In this document: positions 146 to 16,678 of the stretch, piece by piece
Layout of the letters: the number at the start of each line of letters is the position of its first letter
Position numbering within the stretch: the first letter of the stretch is position 1
NCBI GenBank assembly: GCA_900320285.1
Contig: ONRQ01000031.1
Coordinates: forward strand, 1 to 34,206
Length of the DNA stretch: 34,206 bases
Direction of reading: 5' to 3'
Origin: an uncultured Eubacteriales bacterium
GTDB lineage: Bacteria > Bacillota > Clostridia > Peptostreptococcales > Anaerovoracaceae
Translations under genes and position numbers: made by a program
Notes under the pieces: model-generated
The model's input: the letters and a program-made list of their open reading frames with translations, nothing else
The model's database searches: none
What the model was told of the DNA's origin: nothing

Positions 146-1573
146 TTACTTCCAGCAGTCTACCTTGTCGTCGCTGAGGCCGATGTTTGCAGCCTTGAAG
201 TGAGGTGCCTTGCCTTCCTTCTTCTGCTTTGTGTAATCGTCAAGAGCCTTGACAGCAACTCCGCCGAGGATAGCGATGGTAGGAATGTTGCATACTACCA
301 TGAGGCCCTGGAACATGTCAGCTGTATCCCATACAAGTCCTGCACTGGAGATAGATCCGAGGAATACGAGAGCGATAGCAATTATTCTGAAGATCATTAC
401 CTCGGTCTTTGACATGTCTCTCTTGAGGATGAATGCGAAGCAGCCTTCGCAGTATGAATAGTTACCGATCAGTGTGGTAAACGCAAACAGTGTCATCGAA
501 ACAGCAATGAAGATAGGTCCGAAACCGCCGAGTGCTGTGTGGAGGCATGTCTGTACATAACCTGCAGCATTGGCTCCGCCGTCTTCGAGAACGAAGTCAG
601 CAGGCTTAACGGACATTGTGGACAGGCACATGAATGCTGTTGCGGAGCAGATCAGCAGTGTGTCGATGAATACGGACAGTGTCTGAACGAGACCCTGCTT
701 TACCGGGTGAACTACGTCAGCCTTAGCAGCGGCGTTCGGAGCAGAACCCATACCAGCTTCGTTGGAGTAAAGACCTCTCTTGAGACCCCACATGATTACT
801 GATCCGGTGAATCCTCCGAATATTGCCTGGAAGTCGAATGCTGTGCTGAAGATCAGTCCGAACATTGCTCCGAAGTTCCTTGCGTTGAGTACGAGAACTA
901 CGAGGGAAATACCTACGTAGATGACTCCCATTACAGGAACGAGGAATCCGGTTACGTCTGTCAGCTTCTTTGCACCGCCAAGGATGGTAGCTGCAAAGAA
1001 TACAGCGAGGATAACGCCGATTACCATCGGAGTCGATTTTTCGTTATAGAAGCTGAAAGTAGCAAATGTCGACTGCAGGTTGTATGCAGCGAGCATGTTG
1101 TATCCAACGGCATATGTGAAGATGATCAGTACTGAGAAAACAACACCGAGCCATCTCTGACCAAGGGCGTTTTGCATGTAGTACGAAGGTCCGCCGTAAT
1201 ATGTGCCGTCATCAGCCTTTTTCTTATAGATCTGAGCAAGTGTGGACTCGATGAATGCGTTGGCACCACCGAAGATAGCTGTTATCCACATCCAGAAGAT
1301 TGCTCCCGGACCACCGAGGATGATAGCTGTACATACACCGATGATGTTTCCTGTACCTACACGGGAAGCTGTCGAAACCATCAGAGCTCCGAATGACGAG
1401 ATGCCCTTTTCATCAGCAGGTTTCTCGCTGACAACTTTGAACATCTCCTTGAACATACGGATCTGTACGCCTTTAGTTCTGATTGTGAAGTAGATACCTA
1501 CCGCAATCAGGAACAGAGGAACGATATAAGGCTTATACAGAATGTTGTTCATAAAACCTACAAAAGCACTCAT
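146..1573 (-). CDS. AGCS-family Na+/amino acid (alanine/glycine) symporter
   Basis: A 475-residue integral membrane protein of the alanine-or-glycine:cation symporter family (AlsT/DagA type), expected to import a small neutral amino acid with Na+ across the cytoplasmic membrane. The family signatures are visible: RVGTGNIIGV near residue 90, the loop GLYSNEAGMGSAP near residue 270, and about ten or more hydrophobic segments spread over the full length. The length is normal for the family. The start is supported by AAGGAG just upstream of ATG. It has its own candidate promoter (1671-1700), a leader hairpin and two palindromic operator-like sites upstream, so it is probably regulated separately from the operon that ends at 1744. 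Substrate (alanine, glycine or another residue) cannot be told from sequence. Confidence 0.93.
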   Translation of the reverse strand: MSAFVGFMNNILYKPYIVPLFLIAVGIYFTIRTKGVQIRMFKEMFKVVSEKPADEKGISSFGALMVSTASRVGTGNIIGVCTAIILGGPGAIFWMWITAIFGGANAFIESTLAQIYKKKADDGTYYGGPSYYMQNALGQRWLGVVFSVLIIFTYAVGYNMLAAYNLQSTFATFSFYNEKSTPMVIGVILAVFFAATILGGAKKLTDVTGFLVPVMGVIYVGISLVVLVLNARNFGAMFGLIFSTAFDFQAIFGGFTGSVIMWGLKRGLYSNEAGMGSAPNAAAKADVVHPVKQGLVQTLSVFIDTLLICSATAFMCLSTMSVKPADFVLEDGGANAAGYVQTCLHTALGGFGPIFIAVSMTLFAFTTLIGNYSYCEGCFAFILKRDMSKTEVMIFRIIAIALVFLGSISSAGLVWDTADMFQGLMVVCNIPTIAILGGVAVKALDDYTKQKKEGKAPHFKAANIGLSDDKVDCWK

Positions 1574-1702: not shown

Positions 1703-1749
1703 TTGTGAACAAATTGTGATGAAAGATGTATAATTGTATACAATTATAC
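1703..1749. promoter_or_regulatory. paired palindromic operator-like sites (TTGTNNACAA)
   Basis: TTGTGAACAA at 1703-1712 and TTGTATACAA at 1734-1743 share the TTGTNNACAA pattern, and their centres are 31 bp apart, about three helical turns. The second site is the core of a perfect 22-bp palindrome (1728-1749) that overlaps the stop codon of the preceding minus-strand gene. The pattern resembles operators bound by GntR/FCD-type regulators, but this is inference. The sites lie just upstream of the symporter -35 hexamer. Confidence 0.5.
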
Positions 1750-2070
1750 CTGAAATGGCACTATGCAGCAGACAGGTGCCGGCTTTATGCCGTCGAGTTC
1801 AAACTTTTCGATCCATGGGTATTTCTCATATCTTATGACTGCATTCTCTTCCAGCAACACTCCGTGAACAGGCACATAAACAGTCCCTATCTGCGACTCT
1901 TCGCGAAAATAATCTTCGGCATACTCCGAACCATCCCCATCGGTAAAACTTACCGATACCTCCGCCTTGGAGGGGTCACATCACGTGCGGGCGTCATCTG
2001 TCAGCAGCACAATGTCTTTGTATCCGAGCATCGTCATATATGCAATTGCGTTATCGTTAAGTCTTATCAT
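1744..2070 (-). CDS. candidate small selenoprotein with in-frame UGA (Sec30)
   Basis: The minus-strand frame from ATG at 2070 to TAA at 1746-1744 gives a 108-residue protein if one in-frame TGA (1983-1981, codon 30) is read as selenocysteine. The first 29 residues end in LLTDDART. Then comes U-C-D-P, and reading continues coherently to residues such as VPVHGVLLEENA and a C-terminal IKPAPVCCIV. The start overlaps the stop of the preceding deacylase gene as ATGA, implying coupled translation. Immediately after the TGA are two nested hairpins, including an 8-bp stem with a GUU loop 31 bases downstream, in the range usually given for bacterial SECIS elements. The U-C pair and length recall the small CC/Se-motif (seleno)proteins of Firmicutes, tentatively. 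The alternative is a pseudogene with a nonsense mutation. No selA, selB or selC lies in the window to settle it. Confidence 0.65.
1939..1973 (-). promoter_or_regulatory. SECIS-like hairpins downstream of the in-frame UGA
   Basis: On the minus strand the TGA is followed by CCTCC/GGAGG (1973-1969 with 1963-1959, 5-base loop), then by ATCGGTAA/TTACCGAT (1957-1950 with 1946-1939) closing a three-base loop GTT. The loop starts 31 bases after the TGA and its first base is G, matching the recalled minimum for bacterial SECIS elements. Outer CCCC/GGGG (1975-1972 and 1938-1935) could extend the structure in an alternative fold. Confidence 0.55.
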
Positions 2071-2555
2071 AATTTTACGAAATGCAGTTCATTGCCGTGC
2101 TTCTTGATGAGCTTAACAACATCGCGCGTGTTGATGAATACGGTTGCCGTGTTATCACAAGGATGTATCCCCATCAGTTTGTTCTCGAAATCCTTGTCCA
2201 TATACACAACGACATCTTTGTCATCATTGGCGAGTACGCCGAAAGGTGTGACCGCACCGCGGATGAGTCCCATCTTGTCCATGAGGTCTTCCTCAGAAGC
2301 AAATGTAAGAGGACGGGTGTCCTGCGCCTTGCGGAACTCCTTGAGATTCACCTTCTTGTCTTCGAGGCATGTGATGAGGTAGTATTTGCGCTTTTTGTCA
2401 TCGCGCACGAAGAGGTTTTTTGCGATCTGCTCAGGATGAGGCAGGTTGCATTCCAGCATCTCATCAATCGTGTAGACGGGTTTGTGTTCGACTATCTCAA
2501 ACTTGATTTTGCTGTCATCAAGCAGCTTTACGATATCTTCTTTTGTAAGTGTCAT
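2067..2555 (-). CDS. YbaK/ProX-type aminoacyl-tRNA (prolyl) deacylase
   Basis: A 162-residue single-domain protein of the YbaK/ProRS-associated editing family (ProX, PrdX), expected to hydrolyse mischarged tRNA such as Ala-tRNA(Pro) in the cytoplasm. Family marks are the lysine-containing KNLFVRDDKKRKYYL near residue 46, the GAVTPFGVL segment near residue 100 and GIHPCDNTATVF near residue 129. The length matches stand-alone ProX proteins. The start is supported by GGGAG about eight bases upstream. It is the second gene of an operon: 17 bp after the HerA-like ATPase gene and overlapping the next gene by ATGA. In amino-acid-fermenting clostridia a homologue (PrdX) lies in the proline reductase operon; no proline reductase genes are seen here. 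Confidence 0.85.
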   Translation of the reverse strand: MTLTKEDIVKLLDDSKIKFEIVEHKPVYTIDEMLECNLPHPEQIAKNLFVRDDKKRKYYLITCLEDKKVNLKEFRKAQDTRPLTFASEEDLMDKMGLIRGAVTPFGVLANDDKDVVVYMDKDFENKLMGIHPCDNTATVFINTRDVVKLIKKHGNELHFVKL

Positions 2556-2572: not shown

Positions 2573-4279
2573 TTATTTTTTACCCGTTAGTGTTCCGAGA
2601 AGGTTGCGTCCGATCGCCGAGCCTATATTGCCTCCGATTGTGCGGCCTTTTTTGCCGAGTACCGCCTCACCTATCGTTTTGCCGATCTCTCTTCCGATAG
2701 TGCTTCCGGTAGATCTGATGACCTGACGGGTTCCGGACTTGCCCAGATAGCTGTCAGCAAGATCGCCTATCCTTGAGCCGCTTTCTTCTTCTGCCTTTGC
2801 CGCAGGCTGTACCTTTGGCTGCTTCACAGGCTGCTGAGGCTCCTCGTAGTCTATGGTAATGCCTTCATCGGCCGCGGTCTGTGCCGCAGGCTCAGCGGCA
2901 GGTATGCCTGAGGTATTGCCGTATACCTGCCCGTCAGGCGCGGTAATGGACCCGGCGCCTGACGCCGCGGCCGCACCCGGTAAACGTCCCGTGATCACCT
3001 CGTATGCCGAAACATTATCCACCATCGTGAGATATTTATTGTTGAGCGGCGAGTAATCCACCGCATTCCTTCTCTCCTCTTCCGTAATAGCCCCCATACG
3101 GCTTTCCGGAGGAAGTATGAAAGCGTACTCCGCAACTGAAGGCGCGCCCTTCTCATCGAGCATCGAAACTACGGCCTCGCCCGTACCGAGGCTCTGCATG
3201 AGTTCCTTTGTATTGAATTCAGGATTTTCCCGGAAGGCATCAGCTGCGGCATCCAGAGACCTCCTCTCGGCCGGTGTATAGGCATGCAGTCCATGTTCGA
3301 TCTTATTTCCGAGCTGTGACATTACCGATCCCGGAATATCACCCGGGCTCTGCGTTACGAAGAAAATCGATACTCCCTTCGATCTGATCAGCTTCACTAC
3401 CTGCTCGATCTTCTCAAGAAGGCTCTTAGATGCATTCTTGAACAGCAGATGTGCTTCATCGAAGAAGAATACCATCTTAGGTTTCTCCGGGTCACCTACT
3501 TCCGGCAGTACCTCAAACAGCTCCGAAAGCAGATACAGCATGAATGCCGAATACAGCCTCGGCTTGTTGATCAGCGTCTCCGCGTCAAGGATATTGACGA
3601 TACCCCTCCCATCAGGTGCAGTCAGGAAAAGATCCCTGATATCTATTGCAGGCTCGCCGAAGAAAATATCTGCTCCCTCGGATTCGAGCGCAACTATAGC
3701 TCTGATTATCGCAGAGGCAGACTGCTGAGGAATCAGACCGTAATCCATCTTGAACTCACTGGAATGATCTGCGCAGTACTGCAGTGTAGCCTTCATGTCT
3801 TTTGTATCTGTTAGTATCAGTCCGAGATCGTCAGCGATCTTGAAGATGACCTGCATCAGTTCTGTCTGAGTGTCGTTGAGATCGAGCACCTGGCTGAAGA
3901 GCAGCGGCCCCATCTCAGAAACAGTCGTGCGCAAAGGCGTACCGTTCTGTGCATAAATGTCAAATATGGACACCGGGAATCCGCGATAACTGAAAGTGTC
4001 CCTTATTTCGAAACGGTCCAGCCTCTTCTGCATGCTTTCGCTGTCTGTTCCCGGAACAGCTATACCTGCCATGTCCCCCTTTACATCGGACATGAATACA
4101 GGCACTCCGATCTGTGAAAAACTCTCGGCAAGCACCTTGAGCGTGACCGATTTTCCCGTACCTGTAGCACCGCAGATAAATCCATGCCTGTTGGCTTTAT
4201 CCGGCCTCATGCAGATCTTGTCGCTGAGCGTTTCGCCATCGCCCTTTCTGGCGAAATAAATCAAACCGTTGTCTACCAT
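2573..4279 (-). CDS. HerA-like ATPase, DUF853/YjgR family
   Basis: A 568-residue P-loop ATPase of the DUF853 (YjgR) branch of the HerA/FtsK superfamily. Walker A is GATGTGKS (residues 37-44) and Walker B is FFFDEAHLLF (residues 271-280), followed by a sensor-like FFVTQSPGDIP segment. After about residue 430 the protein becomes alanine/proline-rich and low in complexity, ending in a glycine-rich tail with repeated IG motifs (about residues 520-565), as in YjgR. The molecular role of the family is not established; nucleic-acid translocation is inferred from HerA. The start is supported by AAGGAG upstream. It is the first gene of the operon with the deacylase and the selenoprotein candidate, and is read from an extended -10 promoter at about 4413-4421. 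Confidence 0.85.
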   Translation of the reverse strand: MVDNGLIYFARKGDGETLSDKICMRPDKANRHGFICGATGTGKSVTLKVLAESFSQIGVPVFMSDVKGDMAGIAVPGTDSESMQKRLDRFEIRDTFSYRGFPVSIFDIYAQNGTPLRTTVSEMGPLLFSQVLDLNDTQTELMQVIFKIADDLGLILTDTKDMKATLQYCADHSSEFKMDYGLIPQQSASAIIRAIVALESEGADIFFGEPAIDIRDLFLTAPDGRGIVNILDAETLINKPRLYSAFMLYLLSELFEVLPEVGDPEKPKMVFFFDEAHLLFKNASKSLLEKIEQVVKLIRSKGVSIFFVTQSPGDIPGSVMSQLGNKIEHGLHAYTPAERRSLDAAADAFRENPEFNTKELMQSLGTGEAVVSMLDEKGAPSVAEYAFILPPESRMGAITEEERRNAVDYSPLNNKYLTMVDNVSAYEVITGRLPGAAAASGAGSITAPDGQVYGNTSGIPAAEPAAQTAADEGITIDYEEPQQPVKQPKVQPAAKAEEESGSRIGDLADSYLGKSGTRQVIRSTGSTIGREIGKTIGEAVLGKKGRTIGGNIGSAIGRNLLGTLTGKK

Positions 4280-9276: not shown

Positions 9277-10005
9277 TTATTGAACATCCGTACCCTCGAT
9301 TGGGTAATTTGCATCAACCCAAGCGGAGATGCCGCCGGCATAACGATATACGTTCTTAAGTCCCAGACTGGTCAGGTACATAGCTCCCTGATGCGAGCGC
9401 TGACATTTTGTGAATCCGCAGTAAACTACGATCATTACATTTTTGTCTTTGAACTCTGTAGCCTTATAGGACTTTTTGCCGTAGTGCTTATCTTTCTTTT
9501 TTGAGCACTTCTTGTAGTACTTTTTAGCAGGCTTCTTTGTTACCCATTTCTTTTTCTTGGAGTTCCAATAATATTTGACCTTCTTGGTACCTATTTTAGC
9601 CTTAAGCGTATTGTAAAGAGCAGTCTTTTCTCCAGGAAGGATCACAAACTGAGGGCCGTTATTAGCACCTACGATTGAGCAGATAGCTCCTGGAATGTGA
9701 CGCTTTGACCACCAACCTTCAGGCATAGTATCAATGATGATCATTTTCTGGTTGGCATCCATCTTTGCCTTAAGTGTTTTGGTATCAATGAGTTTATACT
9801 TGCCCTGTACGGTCTGATCATGTAAGTCTTTAGCGACTCCTTCTGCATCTACTTCGTTCTTAATGACCTGTGTGCACTGCACCTTAGCCTCTTTAATGTC
9901 CTGTCTGGTAGCTTCTGTAGGTGGAGCAGCAGCAAATACTGAAAGTGAACCAAAGCTCAGAGCGAATATAAGCACCAGAGCCAATATTGTAGCTTTTCTC
10001 TTCAT
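9277..10005 (-). CDS. secreted rhodanese-like domain protein with lysine-rich insert
   Basis: A 242-residue protein with an N-terminal signal peptide (residues 1-26, cleavage near VFA-AAP), so it acts outside the membrane. The rhodanese domain is recognisable by IIIDTMPEGWWSKRHIPGA (about 89-107), the active-site loop VVYCGFTKCQRSHQGA (Cys196, with Cys201 close by) and the closing YAGGISAWV (222-230). Sulfur transfer or redox use of the cysteine is inferred from the family. Between the two halves, about residues 141-182 are extremely rich in Lys and Tyr, unlike ordinary rhodaneses; this may bind wall polymers or nucleic acid. The start is supported by AGGAGG. It has its own promoter and is closed by a strong terminator, so it is probably monocistronic. 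Confidence 0.85.
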   Translation of the reverse strand: MKRKATILALVLIFALSFGSLSVFAAAPPTEATRQDIKEAKVQCTQVIKNEVDAEGVAKDLHDQTVQGKYKLIDTKTLKAKMDANQKMIIIDTMPEGWWSKRHIPGAICSIVGANNGPQFVILPGEKTALYNTLKAKIGTKKVKYYWNSKKKKWVTKKPAKKYYKKCSKKKDKHYGKKSYKATEFKDKNVMIVVYCGFTKCQRSHQGAMYLTSLGLKNVYRYAGGISAWVDANYPIEGTDVQ

Positions 10006-10026
10006 ACAACCCTCCTTTTAAAAAAA

Positions 10027-10051
10027 GAACTAACGTTATTACCGTTAGTTC
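10027..10051 (-). terminator. hairpin plus T-run directly upstream of the rhodanese-like gene
   Basis: GAACTAACG (10027-10035) pairs with CGTTAGTTC (10043-10051) and on the minus strand is followed by seven T, just before AAAAGGAGG of the rhodanese gene. It can end the PAP2/MscS transcript. Because the rhodanese promoter seems to start transcription right at this hairpin, it would also form the 5' end of that mRNA. Confidence 0.75.
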
Positions 10052-10052
10052 G

Positions 10053-10081
10053 ATTTTAGCAATTATGTAATTGTCCTTCAA
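10053..10081 (-). promoter_or_regulatory. promoter of the rhodanese-like gene
   Basis: On the minus strand TTGAAG (10081-10076) and TAAAAT (10058-10053) are separated by exactly 17 bases. The predicted start site falls at the beginning of the hairpin at 10051. Confidence 0.55.
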
Positions 10082-10187
10082 TTGTATAAGGCTAACCACA
10101 GTATCGTTACTTTCAATAGATACCGGCCGCTGTATTGATTTCAGCTATCGATATATGCTTATCCTTACAGCAGCCTCACTCTGTTAT

Positions 10188-10931
10188 TCAATGTTTAGGC
10201 TTGTAGCCTCTCGTCGATTCCGGAGAATCACTTTTGCGCTTCGATGCCTGCTTATTGTCATAAGTAAACTCCAGAGCAGGATCGACTTTCTTTTTACCTT
10301 CGCCCGATACAGCCGCGGCAAACAGGAACAGCAGTGTAGCGCTGAGAAGTATGCCTCCGATTATATCGGTGAACCAGTGTACTCCGCACCACAGTCTTCC
10401 ACCGACAGTAACCACTGTTGCAATGAAGCAAAGAACTCTTATGAATGCGCCGAAAAGGTTGCCGAAATACTTGTCGGAAACTATCATCACAGCTATCATG
10501 ACCGTCATGATCAGCATGGTGTGTGATGAAGGGAACGATGCTTCAGGTGCTGTCTCTCCCGGCATGATTATTGGTCTGTAGTTGACTATATATTTTTCGA
10601 AGAATACATAGCATCCTATTACGGCTATAAACAGTCCGCCGAGTGCCCAGATCTCCCTGTCGACTTTCAGCAGACTCCTGCGCTTTATCATCTGAACGAT
10701 TCCGGCAACAGCGAACATTCCGCAGATCGCTATGGCTATGTATCCTATGAAATCCGTTATATCATACCAGATCATGTTGACACCGGTAAGGTTATGTACA
10801 AACTGATTGATGTGTGAAAAGCCGACCTCAGTACCGGCAGGACCAATCGCTGCAACGTCATATATTCCGAGCAGTACAATCAGTACTGCAAACAAAGCTC
10901 CCGAAATGACAGCTCCAATGATTCTTTTCAT
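10188..10931 (-). CDS. PAP2 family membrane phosphatase
   Basis: A 247-residue polytopic membrane protein of the type 2 phosphatidic acid phosphatase superfamily, which removes phosphate from lipid phosphates or pyrophosphates such as undecaprenyl-PP. The three motifs are present: KYIVNYRP (Lys113, Arg119), FPSSHT (Ser136, His137) and GRLWCGVHWFTD (Arg179, His185, Asp189). The Lys-to-Arg spacing in the first motif is one residue shorter than the textbook form. About six hydrophobic segments are visible. The C-terminal tail (from about residue 213) is polar and cytosolic. The start has AAGGAATAAGG upstream. It follows the MscS gene after 24 bp, so the two are probably co-transcribed, a plausible pairing of envelope functions. 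The exact lipid substrate is unknown. Confidence 0.88.
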   Translation of the reverse strand: MKRIIGAVISGALFAVLIVLLGIYDVAAIGPAGTEVGFSHINQFVHNLTGVNMIWYDITDFIGYIAIAICGMFAVAGIVQMIKRRSLLKVDREIWALGGLFIAVIGCYVFFEKYIVNYRPIIMPGETAPEASFPSSHTMLIMTVMIAVMIVSDKYFGNLFGAFIRVLCFIATVVTVGGRLWCGVHWFTDIIGGILLSATLLFLFAAAVSGEGKKKVDPALEFTYDNKQASKRKSDSPESTRGYKPKH

Positions 10932-13336: not shown

Positions 13337-14260
13337 TTATCTGTAATCGGTGATCTCTATTCCCTGAGCTGCCGCGATACCGCGCAGCTTTTTCATTTCT
13401 TCCTTATCCGGAGTGTAAAAGTCTTCCTGCCCGAAAGGCATACCGATCGCCTCGTATTTGATCATGCCCAGCGAGTGATACGGAAGGAGTTCCATCTTTG
13501 CATCAGGCAGCACGTCATGTACATATGCCGCTGATGCAGCTATATTTTCTTCACTGTTGTTTACCCCGCCTATCACCGGTATCCTGATGACTGTTTCAGG
13601 ATCCTGCTTAAGGGATCCCAGGCGGGCGATGTTTTCAAGTATTCGCTCATTGCTTACACCCGTATATTGCCTGTGCAGCTCCGGATCCATGTGCTTAAGA
13701 TCCATGAATATCAGATCCATACGCTCAAGAGCCGGTCTTACACTTTCAAAGTCAAAGTAACCGCAGCTTTCGAGGTCGATGCTGAGCCCTGAATCGTACA
13801 GTTCTTTTGATACATAATCCAGAAATTCCGGCTGTGAGGTCGCCTCTCCTCCCGAGAATGTCACTCCGCCTCCGCTGTATGAGTAGAACAGCCGGTGCTT
13901 CATTACCTCCCTGATCACGTCATCGGCATCCATAAGCGTTACCATGCCTGCTCTCGCCTCCTCCGGGCAGGCTCTCACGCACGCTCCGCAGGATATGCAT
14001 CTGTCGTGCCCTGTCACTTCACCATTCGTCAGGGCATCCATGTCTATTCCTATCCCCTGCGGGCACACGGCAGCACATGCGCCGCATCCGATGCACTTTC
14101 TTTTGTGCCACCCTATGAGTTCCTTCTGTTCGAAGCCCTCGGGATTCGAGCACCATCTGCAGCGGAGCGGACAGCCTGCCATGAATATATTCGTCCGTAT
14201 ACCCTCTCCGTCATTGACCGAGAACGGCTGGATCTGCATTATATAGCCCTTGATACTCAT
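13337..14260 (-). CDS. glycyl radical enzyme activase (radical SAM, PflA family)
   Basis: A 307-residue radical-SAM protein that would install the glycyl radical on the partner enzyme encoded just upstream. The SAM-cluster motif is GCPLRCRWC (Cys30, Cys34, Cys37). A ferredoxin-like insert carries two further four-cysteine motifs (Cys56/59/62/66 and Cys88/91/94/98), as in activases of dehydratase/decarboxylase-type enzymes rather than PFL itself. SGGGVTFSGGEAT (about 129-141) is the SAM-binding region. The start at 14260 keeps the conserved IKGYIMQIQ opening, but no good ribosome site precedes it; a strong hairpin (14269-14292) occupies that position. An alternative start at Met8 has AAGGG seven bases upstream. 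The gene follows the glycyl radical enzyme after 45 bp. Confidence 0.92.
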   Translation of the reverse strand: MSIKGYIMQIQPFSVNDGEGIRTNIFMAGCPLRCRWCSNPEGFEQKELIGWHKRKCIGCGACAAVCPQGIGIDMDALTNGEVTGHDRCISCGACVRACPEEARAGMVTLMDADDVIREVMKHRLFYSYSGGGVTFSGGEATSQPEFLDYVSKELYDSGLSIDLESCGYFDFESVRPALERMDLIFMDLKHMDPELHRQYTGVSNERILENIARLGSLKQDPETVIRIPVIGGVNNSEENIAASAAYVHDVLPDAKMELLPYHSLGMIKYEAIGMPFGQEDFYTPDKEEMKKLRGIAAAQGIEITDYR

Positions 14261-14268
14261 ACTTACAA

Positions 14269-14292
14269 TTATGCCCGGCCTTAAAGGCCGGG
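14269..14292 (-). other. strong intercistronic hairpin between enzyme and activase genes
   Basis: GCCCGGCC and GGCCGGGC form an 8-bp GC stem around CTTAAAG-type bases, just before the activase start. There is no T-run after it on the minus strand, so it is more likely to stabilise or process the mRNA, or to lower activase translation, than to terminate. Confidence 0.6.
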
Positions 14293-14305
14293 CTTGTTTC
14301 TGTGA

Positions 14306-16678
14306 TCAGAATGCCTCGTGCGCATTCCTTGCCATTATCGAATCCTGCATCTCTTTTGAGAGATTGGTGAACTGTGCGCTGTATCCTGCCACTCTTACCA
14401 GCAGACTGCGGTATTTGTCAGGATTTGCCTGCGCGTCAGCAAGCACTTCGTTTGAGACCGTATTGAACTGAACGTGGAAGCCTCCCAGTGCAAAGTAACT
14501 TTGCAGCATGGCTCCCAGGTTTGCTCTTCCCCTTTTGGTCGCGACGAGGTCGTGATTGAGACGGAGGTTGAGCAATGTGCCACCGCTGTGTATGTCGTGC
14601 TTCATCTTAGCGGCACTCCTCAGTGCTGCCAGACATGTCGACTTGTCACTGCCGGTGTATGGCGAAACACCCTCATTTATAGGATCCTTCGCATGCCTTC
14701 CTTCAGGAGTTGCTCCGAGCACCTTTCCTGTAGGCAGATAATTCGATATGCCCATAAAGGCCGTCACAAAGTGGTTTCCGTAAAGGTCATCATTTTTTGT
14801 GACCTCGTCATAGAAGAAGTCCGCAAGATCGCGCGCTATCGAATCAACATAATCGTCATCATTGCCGTACTTAGGGCAGGCCAGCGCGAGCTCTCTGAGC
14901 TGCTCATATCCTTCCCAGTTATTGTCAAGAGCATCGATAAGCTCCGCCATCGTTGTAACGCCCTCTTCGAAGACGAGTTTTCTGATTACGGCAAGAGAAT
15001 TTGCTGTTACTGACAGTCCCACACCTGTGAATACAGGGCCGATGTTGTACTTGGCTCCTCCGTCCACAAGATCTCGTCCGTTCTTCATGCAATACTCATT
15101 GCAGGACGACATGAACGGTCTGTGCCCGATCTCTTTATGTATCTCCTGCGCGGTCACGAGGCTTATAACGCCATGGCGCACAAGATATCTGAACTGCTTT
15201 TTCCACGCCTCGAGTATCTCATCCATCGAAGCGAATGTCTTTGGATCCTTCTCCTCAAGAGATACCTGTTCTCCTGACAGACGGCTCTTTCCCTGATTCA
15301 GCGCAAATTCAAGGGCGGCTGCAAAACTTATACTGGCAGCTGATGTCCACTCGAAAGTCTTACGCGAATGAGGCACTACGCAGCCGCAGTTGTTCCAGTC
15401 CCTCGCGTCCTCAGGCCTGTATCCCAGATTCGAGAGCATCTGATAACCCGTTCTGTCGCCGTGGATAGCCGGGAATCCGCATCCGGTGGATACGAGTTCA
15501 GTGACAGCTTCCATGAATTCCGGCGGGCAGTCAGGATGTATCCTGCAGCTCAGCGTCGGCTGATGTGTCATACATTCTCTTGTAGCCTGTATGGCCATGT
15601 ATGAGATAGTGTTGGTGGCATCGGTCCCGTCGACCTTTGTACCGCCTATTGTGAGGTTCTCAAAGTTTGTATATCCCGCGAAAAAGCTCGTCGTGTTTTT
15701 GGATATCGTCCATGCCCATTCGCTGTATTTAAGCCAGAGGCATTCGACAAGTTCAAGCGCGGTATCGTAATCAATGATACCGGCCTCTTCATCTGCCTTA
15801 TAATACGGATACATGTACTGGTCAAATCTGCCCGGGTTCCATGCCAGAGGGTTCTCGGCAATGATTCCGCCCAGCTGTACAAACCACACGAACTGCACAG
15901 CTTCCCTGAAAGTCTTCGGAGGCTGCTCAGGTATGCGCGAACATACATCAGAGATCTCTTCAAGTTCCTTCTTTCTGACCGGGTCAGACTCGGCCTCAGC
16001 CATTTCTGCAGCCTTTTTGCTGTAGCGTCTGCCAAGAGTGATCATGCCATCCGCTATAAGTACCATGGACCTATAGAAATCGATCTTTGCCTTCTGCTCC
16101 GGGATTGCCTCATCAAGTTCTGCCAGATATGCTTCTGCTTCCGCGCGTATGCCGCCATAGCCTTTCGGCAGCAGCACATCAACATAGTCAGCAGATATCT
16201 CGCCAATACCGTTACGCCATTTGGAATCGGTATCCAGGAATCCGGTGTCCACACCGATCTTTTTCGTAGCCTCTGATGTCCTGGCAAGGAAAGCTTCCTC
16301 AACAGACTTTCCTTCCCAGTAAGGGAAGATGTTTTTCCTTATGAACTCGGTCTGTTCCGGAGTTACATCGTAAGGGTCCTGCCCTCTCTCAGGGAAGGTG
16401 TCGATCTCGTCGTTGATCCACAGCCATCCGAATTCAGGCGTAAGTATAGCGCTCTTTCTGAACTCACCGCTGGTACCAACAACAAGCTCGCCCTCCCAGA
16501 TGTTTACGGAAAGCTCACAGCATGTATCGTAAAATGCCTGTGCCGTACGTATCAGGTGAGGCTGCCCTTCAGTTCGCTGAAAAGACTTCGTCCAGCTCCA
16601 CGCGCGTTCATATGATATATGAGGCTTTGTATTAACGTAATTATCTCTTATCTTTTCTACTCTTTTTGTGATTGCCAT
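14306..16678 (-). CDS. glycyl radical enzyme of unknown substrate (Cys-Val-Val-Pro type)
   Basis: A 790-residue member of the pyruvate formate-lyase/glycyl radical superfamily. The thiyl cysteine is Cys433 in WNNCGCVVPHSRK, and the radical glycine is Gly765 in VRVAGYSAQF near the C-terminus. The length and the position of both residues match glycerol dehydratase-type enzymes. However, the Glu two residues after the cysteine (Cys-Val-Glu in dehydratases, choline lyase and hydroxyphenylacetate decarboxylase) is Val435 here. It also lacks the adjacent Cys-Cys of true PFL; the nearest second cysteine is Cys431. So substrate and reaction are unknown. The gene begins 29 bp after ilvE and looks like the tail of the BCAA operon; its ribosome site is weak. 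The dedicated activase lies immediately downstream. Confidence 0.93.
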   Translation of the reverse strand: MAITKRVEKIRDNYVNTKPHISYERAWSWTKSFQRTEGQPHLIRTAQAFYDTCCELSVNIWEGELVVGTSGEFRKSAILTPEFGWLWINDEIDTFPERGQDPYDVTPEQTEFIRKNIFPYWEGKSVEEAFLARTSEATKKIGVDTGFLDTDSKWRNGIGEISADYVDVLLPKGYGGIRAEAEAYLAELDEAIPEQKAKIDFYRSMVLIADGMITLGRRYSKKAAEMAEAESDPVRKKELEEISDVCSRIPEQPPKTFREAVQFVWFVQLGGIIAENPLAWNPGRFDQYMYPYYKADEEAGIIDYDTALELVECLWLKYSEWAWTISKNTTSFFAGYTNFENLTIGGTKVDGTDATNTISYMAIQATRECMTHQPTLSCRIHPDCPPEFMEAVTELVSTGCGFPAIHGDRTGYQMLSNLGYRPEDARDWNNCGCVVPHSRKTFEWTSAASISFAAALEFALNQGKSRLSGEQVSLEEKDPKTFASMDEILEAWKKQFRYLVRHGVISLVTAQEIHKEIGHRPFMSSCNEYCMKNGRDLVDGGAKYNIGPVFTGVGLSVTANSLAVIRKLVFEEGVTTMAELIDALDNNWEGYEQLRELALACPKYGNDDDYVDSIARDLADFFYDEVTKNDDLYGNHFVTAFMGISNYLPTGKVLGATPEGRHAKDPINEGVSPYTGSDKSTCLAALRSAAKMKHDIHSGGTLLNLRLNHDLVATKRGRANLGAMLQSYFALGGFHVQFNTVSNEVLADAQANPDKYRSLLVRVAGYSAQFTNLSKEMQDSIMARNAHEAF

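Follow-up and report, generated by a model that had tools for sequence, protein, structure and literature searches.

Gene organization and the in-frame TGA

The window, by which we mean the whole 34,206-nucleotide stretch analysed here, carries near its left end a small gene interrupted by a single TGA, which lies between a ProX-type editing protein and a sodium:alanine symporter, all three on the minus strand. The features of the locus are as follows.

2573..4279, minus strand: HerA-like ATPase, upstream (PF05872, E 2e-186; context only)
2067..2555, minus strand: YbaK/ProX-type aminoacyl-tRNA editing protein (PF04073, E 5.6e-28; ATGA overlap with the selenoprotein gene)
1744..2070, minus strand: very probable selenoprotein gene, 108 codons plus a TAA stop (from translation, homologues and selection)
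1983-1981, minus strand: in-frame TGA codon, residue 30, very probably selenocysteine (from TGA-crossing homologues and selenocysteine machinery)
1978..1980, minus strand: Cys31 codon, directly after the TGA (invariant in the 23-row alignment A3)
1973-1959, minus strand: first predicted hairpin after the TGA (CCUCC/GGAGG, a stem of 5 pairs whose loop lies 12 nt downstream of the TGA)
1957-1939, minus strand: putative bSECIS hairpin (stem of 8 pairs; GUU loop at 1949-1947, 31 nt downstream of the TGA)
1765..1770, minus strand: Cys101-Cys102 codons, C-terminal pair (tail found in L001-L008, L031-L039 and L041)
146..1573, minus strand: sodium:alanine symporter, downstream (PF01235, E 5.1e-148; context only)

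Translation of 2070-1744 with the TGA read as selenocysteine (Sec) gives 108 residues, with a single TGA and the sequence U30-C31-D32-P33 preceded by D-A-R-T at residues 26-29. A preliminary description made from the DNA letters had proposed this reading, and both the translation and the comparisons below bear it out. The description had also pointed to an ATGA overlap with the upstream gene, and the deacylase reading frame does stop at 2067, within the start at 2070. Its expectation that gene callers would overlook the gene or report a 29-residue fragment agrees with the standard ORF list, which splits the gene into pieces of 29 and 43 amino acids.

Homologues and selection across the TGA

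With the window protein as query (E <= 1e-3), homologues were found in 31 of the 296 genomes of the same family. They align across the TGA, so that the finding which the preliminary description would have taken as the mark of a pseudogene did not emerge. The codon is either kept or exchanged with Cys: 30 of the 31 genomes have a TGA within the match, and the remaining one (G212, 99% complete, locus L028) reads Gly-Cys-Cys-Ser and gives no selB match. The match in G186 contains a TAA besides the TGA, where it extends beyond the gene end. On contig C259 of that genome, two distant relatives lie next to each other (9868-10158 and 10240-10527; L029 and L062), each with an in-frame TGA. Among named records all 11 loci carry the TGA; all are metagenome-assembled Mogibacterium or uncultured Clostridiales, and the titles of five of the 11 name sheep or goat gut samples.

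Of 41 loci read, 35 have the TGA followed by Cys and then by x-Pro (U-C-[DAET]-P); four contigs occur twice, leaving 31 distinct U-C loci. The first residue of the pair is coded by TGA in all 35, and no Cys version of the site occurs among them. The other six loci read U-A-G (L024), U-S-G (L026 and L027), U-G-G (L029) and U-T-G (L030), with L028 having no U. Invariant in alignment A3 are Sec30, Cys31, Pro33, Val40, Phe42, Tyr81, Pro85, Trp86 and Gly94. When this alignment served as the query, matches were obtained in 34 of 393 genomes from the order and in one of 398 genomes sampled across the phylum, that one being the window's own, and the U-C group therefore looks narrow in distribution. 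No relative was found in the viral contigs searched.

Substitution rates were compared among 11 genes of the form with the Cys-Cys tail. The dN/dS ratio is 0.05 for codons 1-29, 0.12 for codons 31-45 and 0.05 for codons 46-99, and synonymous divergence is 0.70 before, 0.25 in and 0.70 after the hairpin part (the same three codon ranges). These estimates thus indicate that purifying selection on the protein is equally strong on both sides of the TGA and that synonymous sites in the hairpin part are also under constraint. Even with a divergence of ~0.70 at synonymous sites outside the hairpin part, the TGA, the reading frame and the hairpin have been retained. On this comparative evidence the TGA at 1983-1981 is very probably read as selenocysteine, and the gene is very probably a real small selenoprotein gene.

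Selenocysteine machinery

The components for selenocysteine insertion, for which the preliminary description had suggested a search, are present in the same genome. Contig C65 carries selB and a tRNA-Sec, both over cut-off and the latter also called by ARAGORN, so that the other outcome named as pointing to a pseudogene, a genome lacking selB and selC, did not occur either. An ORF between the two is SelA-like, as recognised by eye, and selD scores over cut-off on contig C51. The selD gene itself codes for Sec, having a TGA in the sequence GGUGAK (L068:1441-1620), which fits the UxxK site given in part of a review table (PMC13188914). Across the family, selB is found in 28 of the 30 TGA-bearing genomes compared with 82 of the 296 overall (Fisher p 1.4e-15); the two TGA-bearing genomes with no selB match are G290 (82% complete) and G186 (89% complete).

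Hairpins downstream of the TGA

Two hairpins had been described after the TGA, one with its loop 31 bases downstream and a G first in the loop, and both are reproduced in the predicted fold. The bSECIS model, as excerpted from the same review (PMC13188914), places the loop 16-37 nt after the UGA with a G in the first two loop bases, and has a stem of 4-16 bp, a loop of 3-9 nt and an energy of <= -7.5 kcal/mol. The second hairpin fits this geometry (31 nt, G first, 8 pairs, loop of 3), and as an isolated 19-nt element it folds with -7.2 kcal/mol, just short of the energy quoted in that excerpt. The loop of the first hairpin, at 12 nt, is closer to the TGA than the published 16-37 nt, and its register differs between subgroups by one base. 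For the 59-nt stretch as a whole the folding energy is ordinary (z -0.48; 57 of 200 shuffles fold at least as well); a single sequence would therefore not prove the hairpin, and the case for it rests on comparison.

That comparison used 31 distinct sequences. Set aside were L024, L029 and L030, whose hairpin is weak or differently spaced, L026, which nearly duplicates L027, the TGA-free L028, and five loci with a 48-nt stretch identical to that of another. In the 8-pair stem, 99.2% of cells are paired and six of the eight pairs show two-sided changes; none of 500 shuffles reached any of five stem measures, and slid controls paired in 14-52% of cells. The loop starts with G in 30 of 30 rows, and the stem base, A-U in the window, is G-C in 21 of the 31 rows. 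The distant L030 has no such hairpin in its predicted fold. Pairs at third codon positions were also set against random synonymous codons (89 of 90 paired versus 28.5 +/- 4.1, with L027, one codon shorter, excluded); moving the trio of pairs upstream gave 86 of 90 at 3 nt, 58 at 6 nt and 26 at 9 nt, and 16 at 3 nt downstream. We do not rely on this test because the trio shifted 3 nt upstream still gives 86 of 90. Support for the hairpin leans instead on the two-sided changes in the aligned stems and on the difference between the slid controls (14-52%) and the true register. An Rfam search of the window at the gathering threshold gave no match.

Family placement and predicted fold

The window protein has no NCBIfam match even at E 10 and no Pfam match at E 1. 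The preliminary description had been reminded of CC/Se-motif proteins by the small size and the U-C pair; kinship with these is upheld and membership among them is not. The corresponding model, NF041239 (cut-off 40 bits), does not match the window protein at E values up to 10, its cut-off is passed in none of the 296 family genomes, and its CxxU motif is absent from the window protein, where residues 26-29 read D-A-R-T. Below cut-off, NF041239 matches L024, L027 and L029. An hhalign comparison set the 23-row profile against four relatives that the NF041239 search listed and the window-protein search did not, all four themselves below the NF041239 cut-off; it gave a probability of 97 and an E of 8e-11 over 90 columns, with Cys-Cys meeting Cys-Cys. 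We considered that the two groups might share a single Sec column, and this was not borne out: Sec is second of the pair (C-U) in the four relatives, stands in CxxU in L024 and L029, and is first (U-C) in the window group. Either the Sec has apparently shifted by one residue between the C-U and U-C groups, or a residue has been gained or lost beside it.

A predicted model of the window protein has a mean pLDDT of 88, falling to 74-76 in residues 21-40, where Sec30 lies. The fold of this model is IscA-like: the six best structure matches in the PDB (Foldseek) are all IscA or SufA chains, with query-normalised TM scores of 0.56-0.65. The best of them, 1r94 (E 8.3e-4, probability 1.00, TM 0.57-0.59), is the sole one at E <= 0.001. 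Sequence searches of the PDB with A3, A8 and L028 gave neither IscA nor any other significant match; PF01521 does not match the window protein and matches, below cut-off, one of the 28 members of A1 (L028); and hhalign to HesB-like relatives gave a non-significant alignment (probability 4.8%) over 40 columns in the C-terminal half. Because these comparisons find no match, the predicted IscA-like fold rests on structure prediction, without a sequence match to IscA. The model for HesB-like selenoproteins, TIGR01911, has no match in the window's genome, and its UxGP motif differs from U-C-D-P. Elsewhere in the family's genomes, proteins that match TIGR01911 below cut-off occur (L100-L111), most with an in-frame TGA, and the three that were read have GUGGP. 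We regard the window protein, with its predicted IscA-like fold, as belonging to a sister subfamily of the CC/Se proteins and to neither NF041239 nor TIGR01911.

C-terminal forms

The U-C proteins differ at their C-termini. The window form ends in Cys-Cys plus a few residues (L001-L008, L031-L039 and L041), a tail that is absent from all other forms, and three proteins (L016, L018 and L025) consist of the domain with little or nothing added. An extended form (L009-L015, L023 and L040), which comes from members of the window's genus or from a Mogibacterium record, has roughly 115-165 extra C-terminal residues of no assigned family, with few Pfam matches, all below cut-off (DUF7674 and DUF6918). 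In a quick tree, with 14 of its 27 inner branches open, the Cys-Cys-tail form is nested within the extended form, so the C-terminal extension was probably lost in the Cys-Cys-tail clade.

A winged-helix form is found in five genomes of the family (L017, L019, L020, L021 and L022; e.g. L019:1501-2025), with Pfam helix-turn-helix and Sso10a matches below cut-off in the added part. The model of L019 (mean pLDDT 92, pTM 0.60) has the order helix-helix-helix-strand-strand. In a PDB structure search its first part matches IscA (E 8.4e-4) and its second part matches PefR/MarR regulators (best E 2.6e-3). The five fusions are thus candidate selenocysteine-containing DNA-binding proteins.

Gene neighbourhood

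ProX adjoins 13 of the 14 distinct Cys-Cys-tail loci, the exception being L008, and overlaps the start of the selenoprotein gene in seven of these 13 (six ATGA, one GTGA). HerA and the symporter are each beside 12 of the 14, and at L007 ProX is kept, and neither HerA nor the symporter turned up in the stretch examined. ProX was not found around any other form (mostly 1.5 kb on each side). The coupling to a ProX-type deacylase that had been suggested therefore stands as adjacency within the Cys-Cys-tail clade and does not extend to the other forms; in the loci sampled, the link is clade-specific. A histidine phosphatase, a flavodoxin and a nucleoside diphosphate kinase are among eight neighbours searched against Pfam, two of which adjoin the Cys-Cys-tail loci L007 and L008. 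The differing C-termini and changing neighbours point to no single pathway.

At three loci the stop of the selenoprotein gene shares bases with a possible start of the ORF that follows, in a GTGA (L007:1459 and L016:1821) or an ATGA (L018:1803); these starts are simply the first start codons of the ORFs, which correspond to three different genes (SDH_alpha, pyrroline-5-carboxylate reductase and NUDIX). Further along the window, at 13337-16678, ORFs resemble by eye a glycyl-radical enzyme and its activating enzyme.

Interpretation and alternatives

Comparison supports a functional selenoprotein gene in which TGA30 is read as Sec. We consider it likely that the product is a single IscA/SufA-like domain whose Sec-Cys site binds a thiophilic ligand or is redox-active, most likely for sensing. 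SelB and tRNA-Sec, together with the bSECIS hairpin at 1957-1939, would decode TGA30 as Sec, giving a predicted IscA/SufA-like domain with the invariant Sec30-Cys31-x-Pro33 in a loop between strands 19-25 and 37-43. By topology this loop presumably lies about where IscA has its first cluster-ligand cysteine, and we take the Cys101-Cys102 tail of the Cys-Cys-tail clade to lie about where IscA has its C-terminal cysteine pair. Sec30 and Cys31, joined here by the tail cysteines, could form a soft-metal, Fe-S or redox site, which would either bind a thiophilic ligand or be reversibly oxidised to a Se-S bond. According to a portion of the 2026 review (PMC13188914), Sec may act as a metal ligand in the SaoB, SaoC and UXX-star selenoproteins. 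A sensing role seems the most likely one for the domain, since sister proteins carry it together with a predicted MarR-like winged helix; such fusions would relay the signal to DNA, and the window's short form would work on its own as a carrier or sensor. More tentatively, as a possibility that falls somewhat short of being probable, the U-C-x-P domain may be a genetically encoded sensor that works through selenium and is built on an IscA-like scaffold, the winged-helix fusions (L017 and L019-L022) transcription factors that sense a soft metal, a metalloid or an oxidant via Sec, and the window protein its stand-alone form.

A thiol-disulphide or peroxide redox enzyme that uses no metal or cluster, with Sec30-Cys31 catalytic and Cys101-Cys102 as the resolving dithiol, is a less probable reading. 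The adjacent U-C and the C-terminal C-C are what such an enzyme would have, and most uncharacterised selenoproteins are probably redox proteins according to the review excerpt (PMC13188914), but no thioredoxin-like protein is among the best 50 PDB matches, in which IscA/SufA chains are at the top, and the other forms are without the Cys-Cys tail. It is somewhat less probable again that the protein is simply a divergent member of the CC/Se-motif family NF041239. The profile link (probability 97, E 8e-11, 90 columns) argues for this, as do the matches to L024, L027 and L029 below cut-off and the searches in G031 (L030) and G107, where NF041239 and the window protein find the same place; yet the relatives compared are themselves below cut-off, the model fails to match the window protein at E 10 and passes its cut-off in none of the 296 genomes, and the listed motif, CxxU in the table as excerpted (PMC13188914), and the C-U or CxxU of the relatives differ from a U-C-D-P that follows D-A-R-T.

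A role in tRNA quality control, as partner to the ProX-type deacylase, would account for the ATGA overlap, for the presence of ProX at 13 of 14 Cys-Cys-tail loci and for its retention at L007; we regard this as improbable, since ProX is not beside the other forms and their identified neighbours differ. As for an ordinary stop codon, leaving a pseudogene or a 29-residue peptide, the unexceptional fold energy of the window stretch and the two of 30 TGA genomes with no selB match might be cited in its favour, but the comparison speaks strongly against it: dN/dS is 0.05 after the TGA, the frame is kept and the hairpin covaries. Selection after the TGA and hairpin covariation in effect rule this reading out, and we give it a vanishingly small chance.

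Significance and relation to known systems

The U-C proteins, which none of the searched Pfam and NCBIfam models matches, would form a new selenoprotein subfamily in anaerobic relatives of Mogibacterium. Literature on selenoproteins together with Mogibacterium, winged-helix or helix-turn-helix contained nothing on the window protein by title or abstract start. Annotation built on Cys homologues would tend to miss this subfamily, the only TGA-free relative found being the distant L028; in part of their paper, the deep-Sep authors state that selenoproteins lacking Cys homologues may be filtered out by their method, and that such homologues now seem to exist for every known selenoprotein (PMC12013277). 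The winged-helix relatives suggest that bacteria may use selenium in a sensor, and they would make selenocysteine-based gene regulation testable. To judge by the names in the 2026 table of 119 selenoprotein families (PMC13188914, in excerpt), none is a helix-turn-helix protein, the nearest being a putative FmdB-family regulatory protein. MarR-family regulators such as PefR (7dvr) resemble the C-terminal part of L019 in its predicted fold; the window protein lacks that part.

Another U-C pair occurs in the CopZ-family (2Fe-2S)-binding selenoprotein form 1 (cd10141), with the motif GxUC in the excerpted table (PMC13188914), but this is by name a different domain, and the window protein has no match in either Pfam or NCBIfam. 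The HesB-like relatives of TIGR01911 are IscA homologues by sequence, with a Sec (GUGGP) aligned to a cysteine of the IscA family; their motif, UxGP in the same excerpt (PMC13188914), is not that of the window protein, and the profile comparison with them is not significant. NF041239 (Moor_selen_rel) describes proteins of similar length that are homologous to the window group by profile comparison with its low-scoring relatives, Cys-Cys falling on Cys-Cys. Its motif is CxxU in the 2026 table (PMC13188914, in excerpt) and its TGA-bearing relatives have C-U or CxxU, whereas the window group has U-C-[DAET]-P, and among the loci read C-terminal fusions are seen only in U-C rows. The window protein is like the IscA/SufA A-type carriers (PF01521) in its predicted fold, in having a reactive residue in a comparable loop and in its C-terminal cysteine pair; it differs from them in lacking a PF01521 match, in having Cys-Cys rather than Cys-x-Cys, in its Sec and in the existence of fused forms. 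A-type carriers bind Fe-S by three cysteines including a CxC, in the place of which the window protein has CC.
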